A DNA stretch of 64,000 nt. Origin: Methylobacterium sp. 17Sr1-1. GTDB lineage: Bacteria > Pseudomonadota > Alphaproteobacteria > Rhizobiales > Beijerinckiaceae. Below the pieces are notes generated by a model that saw only the letters and a program-made list of their open reading frames with translations, did not search any database and was not told the DNA's origin. Location: the NCBI RefSeq assembly GCF_003173775.1, contig NZ_CP029552.1:1148501-1212500 (forward strand), given 5' to 3'. Shown one piece after another: positions 20,392 through 22,471 of this stretch (the first letter of the stretch is position 1; each line of letters starts with the position of its first letter). Both the position numbers and the translations under genes were made by a program.

Positions 20392-20426
20392 CGGCGCCTC
20401 GCGCGGTTCGGGACGCGAAACGAATG

Positions 20427-20442
20427 GCAAAGGGCGTGCCAA
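20427..20442 (-). promoter_or_regulatory. Sigma-54 (-24/-12) promoter of the cyanase operon
   Basis: On the minus strand the sequence TTGGCACGCCCTTTGC matches the sigma-54 consensus TGGCACG-N4-TTGC without mismatch. It would start transcription near 20415, about 25 bases before the binding protein start codon. The divergent gene encodes a sigma-54 activator, which strengthens the call. Confidence 0.8.
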
Positions 20443-20505
20443 GCCGGACGGAAAAATTAAAACCCGTGAAATCAGTCGCTTGGCGCGAATATGCGCGATT
20501 ACGAT

Positions 20506-20524
20506 ATCTCGTGTATAACGAGAT
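20506..20524. promoter_or_regulatory. Inverted repeat ATCTCGT-N5-ACGAGAT, candidate activator site
   Basis: ATCTCGT (20506-20512) and ACGAGAT (20518-20524) flank GTATA. The site lies about 65-80 bases upstream of the sigma-54 promoter, a normal position for an enhancer site bound by a Fis-type helix-turn-helix dimer. The same half-sites recur at 20539-20550. Confidence 0.6.
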
Positions 20525-20538
20525 GTCGTAGCTTCTTG

Positions 20539-20550
20539 ACGAGATCTCGT
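20539..20550. promoter_or_regulatory. Palindrome ACGAGATCTCGT abutting the regulator's start codon
   Basis: This perfect 12-bp palindrome uses the half-sites of the neighbouring inverted repeat with no spacer and ends 1 base before the ATG at 20552. Binding here would block translation initiation or early transcription of the regulator, which suggests autorepression. Confidence 0.55.
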
Positions 20551-20551
20551 G

Positions 20552-22471
20552 ATGCACGAACCCACCTCGGACATGGCGGCTGATCGTGGTGGGGTGGCCG
20601 GCCTCGGGGTCGTCTTCGAAGCCGGCGCCGAGGCCATGCTGGTGCTCGATCCGGATGCCGACCGGATCGTCGACGCCAACGACGCCGCGTCGCGCCTTCT
20701 CGGCCACGCGCGGGATGTGCTGCGCGGCATGGCGGCGAGCGCGCTGCATCAGGGCCAGCTCGCGGCGCTGATCGTGTTCACGCAGGGCGTCCAGGCCAAG
20801 GGCCGCTGGTGGACTCATACGCTCACGCCGCGGCACGGGGCGGGTCGCACCCTCACCCTGGAGACCGTGGGCACGGTCCTGCCGGACCGGCTCGTCCTCT
20901 TCACCCTGTTCGATCTCGACGAGCGCCGCCAGCGCCAGGTCGACCGCGAGGCCGACCGCCACATGCGCGCCGGCCTCTCGGAATGGCAGCGGATGGAGCG
21001 GATCTTTCGCGATATCGAGCACGAGAACCAGCTGATCCTGCGCGCCGCGGGCGAGGGCATCTACGGCGTCAATGCCGAGGGGGTGACGACCTTCGTCAAC
21101 CCGGCCGCCGAGCGCATGCTGGGCTGGCCCGCCGCCGACCTCGTCGGCCGGGACATGCACGCCGCCGTGCACCACACCCACCCGGACGGCTGCCACTACC
21201 CGCACCGGGACTGCCCGATCTACGCCGCCTTCCGGGACGGGGCGGTGCATCAGGTCGACGACGAGGTGTTCTGGCGGCGCGACGGCACGTCGTTCCCCGT
21301 CGAGTACACCTCGACCCCGATCCGCGACCGCGGCGCGCTCGTCGGCGCCGTCATCGTGTTCCGCGACGTCAGCCAGCGCCGCGAGGCGGACGAGCGCCTG
21401 CGCCACGCGCTCGCCGAGGTCGTGTCACTGCGTGAGAGGCTGGAACTCGAGAACGCCTACCTCAAGGAGGAGATCCGGGCGGGGAGCCATCACCAGGGCA
21501 TCATCGGGCGGAGCCCGGCCATCGAGGCGATCCGGCGCCAGATCGACCTCGTCGCCGGTACCGACGCCACGGTGCTGGTCACCGGCGAGTCCGGCACCGG
21601 CAAGGAGCTGATCGCCCGCGCGATCCACGAGGCGAGCCGCCGCCGCGGGCGCCCGCTCATCCGGGTGAACTGCGCCGCGGTGCCGCGCGAGCTGTTCGAG
21701 AGCGAGTTCTTCGGCCATGCCCGCGGGGCCTTCACCGGGGCGTTGCGCGATCGCGTCGGGCGCTTCGAGCTGGCCGATGGCGGCACGCTGTTCCTCGACG
21801 AGGTCGGCGAAATCCCCCTCGACCTCCAGGGCAAGCTCCTGCGTGTGCTCCAGGAGCGCTCCTTCGAACGCGTCGGCGAGGAACGCACCCGCGCGGTCGA
21901 CGTGCGCCTCGTCGCGGCCACGAACCGCGACCTGAAGGAGGAGGTTCGCCGGGGCCGCTTCCGCGGCGACCTGTACTTTCGCCTGAACGTCTTCCCGATC
22001 AGCGCCACCCCCTTGCGCGAACGGCCGGAAGACATCCCCCTCATCGCTCAGCACATGCTCACCGGGGCGGCGCACCGCCTCGGCGTGCCCGAGCCCCGCC
22101 TGACGGAAGGCGACGTCCGCCGCCTCATCCGCTACGGCTGGCCCGGCAACGTGCGCGAACTGGAGAACGTCATCGAGCGCGGCGTCATCCTGGCCCAGCG
22201 CGGGCGCCTCCGCCTCGACCTGTCCGAGGGGGAGGCGGAGGAACCCGCCCCGAGCGAGGCCCCCGTCCGGCCCGATCACGCCCTCGCCTCCTCCGGACCT
22301 CCGCCGCGCAGCGAGGCGGAGCGGCGCGCCCGCGACCGGGCCGAGATCGTCGAAGCGCTGGCCCTGTGCGGCGGCAAGGTATTCGGGCCGGGCGGCGCCG
22401 CCGAACTGCTCGGCATTCGCCCGACGACGCTCGCATCCCGCATCAAATCCCACGGCATCAAGAAGCCGTGA
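20552..22471 (+). CDS. Sigma-54-dependent PAS-domain transcriptional activator (Fis family)
   Basis: A 639-residue enhancer-binding protein. Two PAS-like regions (about 15-125 and 165-285) precede a AAA+ domain from about 315 with Walker A GESGTGKE, the sigma-54 contact motif GAFTGA near residue 391 and [11 protein letters not shown] Fis-type helix-turn-helix fills the last 43 residues ([19 protein letters not shown]). The second PAS has many His and Cys ([16 protein letters not shown]), possibly for a cofactor or metal. A GTG directly precedes the ATG and could also serve. Divergent orientation and the sigma-54 promoter point to control of the cyanate operon. Confidence 0.93.

Follow-up and report, generated by a model that had tools for sequence, protein, structure and literature searches.

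Probable CynF-type control of a cyanase operon in Methylobacterium, with candidate operators and a conserved His/Cys-rich PAS domain

The divergent cynF-cynABDS locus of Methylobacterium sp. 17Sr1-1 is a further example of a known control system. Very probably, CynF acts from palindromes in the divergent gap and, in response to cyanate or something derived from it, drives a sigma-54 promoter of cynABDS, whose products serve the use of cyanate as a nitrogen source. In the mechanism that we propose, CynF would bind the three ACGA.AT.TCGT palindromes of the gap, the signal would be perceived, probably via the second PAS domain (PAS2), and the AAA+ ring with its GAFTGA motif would, as in other members of the family, remodel sigma-54 polymerase at 20441-20427 and fire cynABDS. 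The preliminary description of this DNA had held that no sigma-54 PAS activator dedicated to cyanate had been described. This proved wrong, and the novelty of sigma-54 control of cyanase was rejected, as the Pseudomonas CynF has been reported (Saez et al. 2019, PMC6627978) and a 2025 survey counts cyanate lyase as one of the functions under sigma-54 control, with enrichment in alpha- and gammaproteobacteria (PMC12316311).

According to the main text of the former study, cynF of P. pseudoalcaligenes CECT5344 is divergent from and 268 bp distant from cynA, lies beside gltB, and encodes a Fis-family regulator that is putatively dependent on sigma-54; a putative promoter of the sigma-54 type precedes cynA. 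CynF was reported to be essential for cynABDS expression, which cyanate induces and ammonium strongly represses in Pseudomonas; a cynF mutant was without cyanase activity on any nitrogen source tried. A like arrangement was noted elsewhere in Pseudomonas and among alpha-, beta- and gammaproteobacteria. With the basic claim already in print, our comparison adds a candidate operator for CynF and NitA and a candidate cyano-sensing type of PAS domain. It also provides a natural series in which the activator family appears to have left sigma-54 with its operators kept, which bears on how sigma-54 activators change kind.

The cyn locus and its sigma-54-type promoter

The window, the whole stretch of 64,000 nt that was analysed, derives from a genome of 6,542,583 bp in one contig. 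The features considered here are as follows.

16518..17006, minus strand: cynS, cyanase (PF02560; NF002773 and TIGR00673 over their cut-offs)
17175..18173, minus strand: cynD, ATPase (TIGR01184 over its cut-off)
18189..19028, minus strand: cynB, permease (TIGR01183 over its cut-off)
19033..20391, minus strand: cynA, CmpA/NrtA-type binding protein (PF13379; relatives carry the same name)
20427..20441, minus strand: predicted sigma-54 (-24/-12) promoter of cynABDS, TGGCACGCCCTTTGC, 10/10 consensus positions
20501..20512, no strand: candidate CynF operator 1, ACGATATCTCGT, the palindrome nearest to the promoter
20518..20529, no strand: candidate CynF operator 2, ACGAGATGTCGT, palindrome, 17 bp from operator 1
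20539..20550, no strand: candidate CynF operator 3, ACGAGATCTCGT, palindrome, 21 bp from operator 2, overlapping GTG 20549
20549..22471, plus strand: cynF, 640 aa, PAS-PAS-AAA+-lid-Fis-like C-terminus (profile matches and motifs)
21158..21223, plus strand: His/Cys motif of PAS2 (H204, H208, H209, H211, C222), conserved in aligned homologues

The preliminary description had read this region as a binding protein-permease-ATPase-cyanase operon with a mismatch-free sigma-54 promoter just before it and a divergent GAFTGA activator, and each of these elements was recovered. Profile matches identified cynABDS, all on the minus strand with cynS inside the operon, and the divergent gene at 20549-22471 encodes a 640-residue PAS-PAS-AAA+ protein. 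PAS1 occupies residues ~22-58, PAS2 residues 161-274 and the sigma-54 AAA+ domain (PF00158, 240.6 bits) residues 318-484; the last contains GESGTGK (Walker A), LFLDEV (Walker B) and GAFTGA, as in sigma-54 enhancer-binding proteins. The gap between cynA and cynF is 157 bp, or 181 bp if cynF starts at ATG 20573. As the third palindrome overlaps GTG 20549, this ATG is perhaps the true start (632 aa). The genome contains a single match to rpoN. No full-length CynF paralogue was found in the genome, all ten other matches being partial (eight to the AAA+ part, some including the C-terminus, and two to the PAS part only), and the closest CynF relatives in the tree are from Methylobacterium. Expression of the E. 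coli cyn genes is controlled by the LysR-type CynR; among nine nearby window ORFs scanned, none matched a LysR-type gene. Two window ORFs near the cluster, 22993-23565 (190 aa) and 14952-15914 (320 aa), were without a Pfam match at 1e-5.

The -24/-12 site lies 35 bp ahead of cynABDS, conforms exactly to TGGCAC-N5-TTGC and occurs in a genome with rpoN. It was the sole match within one mismatch in the window, where dinucleotide shuffles gave a mean of 2.52. Near-matches are thus common, so that only exactness and place carry weight, and near-matches were rejected as proof of a sigma-54 promoter. Exact sites numbered 14 genome-wide, compared to 7 for the reversed pattern, a density at which the chance of one falling within the 157-bp gap is about 3 in 10,000.

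A search for the same divergent arrangement in other genomes, as the preliminary description had proposed, was successful. The scan of named-species genomes covered the best 80 of 567 confirmed CynF relatives, and 74 of these 80 had cynA or cynS in divergent orientation no more than 2.5 kb away. CynF was present at E 1e-200 or better in 61 of 111 genomes of the window's genus. Across the phylum, cynS was found in 88 of 397 sampled genomes; counting the window, this gave 89 places. Of the 88 outside the window, 21 had CynF alongside, six had a PAS histidine kinase and a LuxR-type regulator upstream of cynABDS, four had cynABDS with neither regulator and 57 had cynS only (fragments L137-L139 included), absence being uncertain at the several stretches that stop early at contig ends (e.g. 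L076, L078, L093, L103). On a plasmid of Loktanella salsilacus (L006), one CynF stands between cynABDS and a Nit1C-type cluster, and on a Bosea sp. F3-2 plasmid (L002:46-498) a LysR-type fragment is annotated ~1.2 kb past the cynS of a CynF-cynABDS locus.

Loci with a divergent partner numbered 123, consisting of 49 (41 cynA, 5 cynS, 3 nitB) and the 74 from the best 80 of 567 relatives; CynF was identical in three pairs among them (L035/L153, L067/L180, L099/L217). In 92 loci, a set that draws partly on the best 80 of 567, the homologue was of the GAF[T/S]GA type, GSFTGA included. The best -24/-12 score at these 92 loci was 9-10 in 70, 8 in 20 and 7 in 2 (L151, L154), whereas resampled controls reached at least 9 in 1.45% and 8 in 15.9% of cases. 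Because ~16% of controls also score 8, the 20 loci at 8 and the two at 7 are weak. The Pseudomonas group, where CynF was tested, scored just 7-8 among the relatives listed. As far as sequence goes, the comparison across loci bears out the initial proposal that the cyanase operon combines sigma-54 with a divergently encoded PAS activator. Scores of at least 9 were also found without CynF, at 6 of 10 cynABDS loci and 14 of 55 cynS-only loci, and sigma-54 control thus does not need CynF. Sites of 9-10/10 precede the cyanase genes of L104 and of the cynS-only loci L036, L046, L056, L075, L076 and L093; neither CynF nor paired CynF operators were found near these genes, and their control by NtrC is a guess.

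Palindromes in the divergent gap

The cynA/cynF gap contains three palindromes, ACGANATNTCGT, of which the preliminary description made no mention; measured from the start of cynA, their centres lie at 154, 133 and 116 bp. In the whole genome ACGANATNTCGT occurs at five places, three of them in this gap, and the reversed control at one. The two remaining sites are within long ORFs and were rejected as other CynF targets; one ORF was scanned per site, and neither gave an NCBIfam match at 1e-15.

Operators were scored against TACGAAATTTCGTA, a site being 10/14 or better. At least two were present at 83 of the 92 GAF[T/S]GA loci, compared to 1.3% of resampled controls, with nine loci below two (e.g. 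L067, L208). The same was true of 23 of 27 loci whose homologue had lost the motif and of three of four with an alignment gap at the motif, all three sets again drawing partly on the best 80 of 567 relatives. As the CynF loci themselves had supplied the consensus, cyanase loci without CynF provide a fairer test; with 400 bp upstream scored, at least two operators were found at 0 of 10 cynABDS and 0 of 55 cynS-only loci (0/65). The triple spacing of the window recurs at three loci of NitA (L003, L005, L140). We regard the three palindromes as candidate CynF operators.

Loss of GAFTGA and the distribution of rpoN

The best -24/-12 score at the 27 motif-lost loci (partly from the best 80 of 567) was 9-10 in one (L183), 8 in four and 7 or less in 22. 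The loci with a gap at the motif scored 9-10 in 4/4; L189 and L212 are truncated, and L199 and L200 are true deletions. Twenty-five of the 27 motif-lost loci form one clade (SH-aLRT 100), made up of 23 loci from the order of genome G387 and the named plasmid loci L004 and L006, from which two we infer the label Rhodobacterales for the 23. As the 25 loci form a single clade, the loss of GAFTGA counts as about one event. Within the clade the motif was lost in 25/25 and a -24/-12 score of at least 9 was found in 0/25 (6 in nine loci, 7 in 12 and 8 in four). At least two operators were kept in 22/25, lack of operators being uncertain at L112 and L092, where the gap is shortened. The motif has decayed into GAFPGA, GAYPGA, GAFAGA, GANADA and other forms, as expected once contact with sigma-54 is useless.

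Among the CynF-bearing genomes of this order, rpoN over the cut-off was absent in 22 of 23 and present only in G387. Its absence is mainly a trait of the whole order, where 46 of 195 genomes have rpoN over the cut-off; the comparison of 1/23 CynF carriers with 45/172 others gave a Fisher p of 0.018, uncorrected for kinship. Motif, site and rpoN are not strictly coupled, since L183 (AAFPGA), L199 and L200 (deletion) lack GAFTGA, yet have 10/10 sites and rpoN in the genome, and in L188 (Acuticoccus) motif and site are both lost although the genome has rpoN. The CynF homologues of L183, L199:6926-8413 and L200 have matches that lack PAS1. When 23 Rhodobacterales gaps were aligned ungapped on the nearest palindrome, L112 and L092 being omitted because their shortened gaps have no palindrome, no shared sigma-70 promoter was evident. 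The cyn system of this lineage seems to have abandoned sigma-54 but retained its operators.

The existence of homologues without GAFTGA, together with the frequency of near-matches in the GC-rich window, could be taken to mean that an ordinary sigma-70 promoter runs the Methylobacterium operon and that the -24/-12 match is incidental. We consider this highly improbable, as the site is exact and comparable loci score 9-10 far more often than controls. An explanation that accepts the sigma-54 promoter is that NtrC, as general nitrogen control, is its main driver, with CynF a minor factor or co-regulator. The high-scoring sites at cyanase genes without CynF and the strong repression by ammonium reported in Pseudomonas (PMC6627978) are in its favour, but the cynF mutant of that study was devoid of cyanase activity whichever nitrogen source was tried, and the operators track CynF, not the sigma-54 site. 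We regard NtrC as an unlikely main driver and retain CynF, acting at the palindromes, as the very probable activator of cynABDS.

The second PAS domain and comparison with known systems

In 136 aligned homologues, which rest partly on the best 80 of 567 relatives, H204, H208 and C222 of PAS2 were present in 136/136, H209 in 135/136 and H211 in 121/136. This conservation strengthens the earlier suggestion that the His/Cys-rich domain may sense a ligand or metal. The model of PAS2 adopts a PAS fold (pLDDT 85.7), and its best matches were FixL haem PAS and LOV domains, which at ~20-30% identity do not fix the cofactor. A solved structure carrying the motif was sought among the nearest PDB sequences (E 1.2e-9) and rejected, the motif being absent from the two alignments shown.

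At six of the 88 other cyanase loci, the place of CynF is taken by a PAS2-type histidine kinase and a LuxR-type regulator (L040:6758-8705, L042:3448-5402, L037, L058, L073, L074; Pfam domains checked for the L040 pair). The kinase gene is next to cynA in five and ~3.5 kb upstream in L037. The -24/-12 score before cynA was 9 in five loci and 8 in one, and no CynF operators were found in the upstream regions scored. The retention of a sigma-54-like site without CynF operators suggests a division in which sigma-54 provides general nitrogen control and the kinase pair cyanate induction.

PAS2 is not a cyanate-only domain, as the type is widespread in other long proteins and single-PAS sigma-54 activators with the His/Cys motif stand beside ccoG (L142, L143, L145; three examined of seven); cyanate specificity of every PAS2 relative was rejected on the ccoG-linked proteins. 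Genes for imelysin and a di-haem oxidoreductase are also near the single-PAS activator of L142. The ccoG-linked proteins and, at the level of the fold model, the resemblance to FixL haem PAS and LOV domains would agree with PAS2 reporting redox, oxygen or metal state, cyanate specificity coming from elsewhere. Recurrence of the PAS2 type on a histidine kinase at cynABDS argues against this, and we hold it to be possible but somewhat doubtful.

Sensing of cyanate or its product via PAS2 can be extended, tentatively and as a whole, into a joint reading. CynF and NitA might form one PAS2 family that senses small cyano compounds and shares an operator code, TACGAAATTTCGTA, with spacings of 21-22 and 17-18 bp. 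The sensor would be portable, mounted on sigma-54 AAA+ activators, on LuxR-paired histidine kinases and on eroded Rhodobacterales AAA+ proteins at a non-sigma-54 promoter, and its invariant His/Cys set might hold a metal or haem to which cyanate or cyanide coordinates. In the open-access literature searched, we did not find CynF operators, GAFTGA loss in CynF or the PAS2 kinase in print, and one literature listing by keyword returned no Methylobacterium cyanase experiment. In the main text of PMC6627978, PAS domains, palindromes and enhancers go unmentioned.

Among known systems, CynF-cynABDS of CECT5344 resembles the window in its divergent sigma-54-type Fis-family activator, its putative sigma-54 promoter before cynA and its cynABDS order, and differs in its longer gap. 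The P. mendocina EF27 locus L155 served as a stand-in for the CECT5344 CynF sequence, and its cynF likewise adjoins gltB. The window CynF is homologous to the L155 protein over its full length, both PAS domains included, with 57% identity over residues 21-637 (PAS1 32%, PAS2 67%, AAA+ 72%, C-terminus 43%); identity to ten Pseudomonas loci, among the relatives listed, was 57-59%. The P. mendocina group differs from the window in its -24/-12 score of 7-8 as against 10/10. CynF control is described again in PMC11049912, where NitA is called a Fis-family sigma-54 regulator; nitA and cynF are listed in PMC5333837, and nitA in PMC6368324. The NitA homologues on Acinetobacter plasmids, at the Nit1C (cyanide-assimilation nitrilase) cluster, are 47% identical to the window CynF. 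The NitA loci L003, L005 and L140 share the PAS2 motif, and each scores 9 at its -24/-12 site and has three operators, whereas the partner operon is nitB/nitC instead of cynABDS and the three form a separate group in the tree. Finally, NtrC proteins of Rhodobacter capsulatus and Caulobacter without GAFTGA reportedly work at promoters of the sigma-70 type (PMC10274813). Like the Rhodobacterales CynF, they are NtrC-kind activators without the sigma-54 contact loop, although they belong to another protein family and operon; by analogy, CynF without GAFTGA may act with sigma-70.
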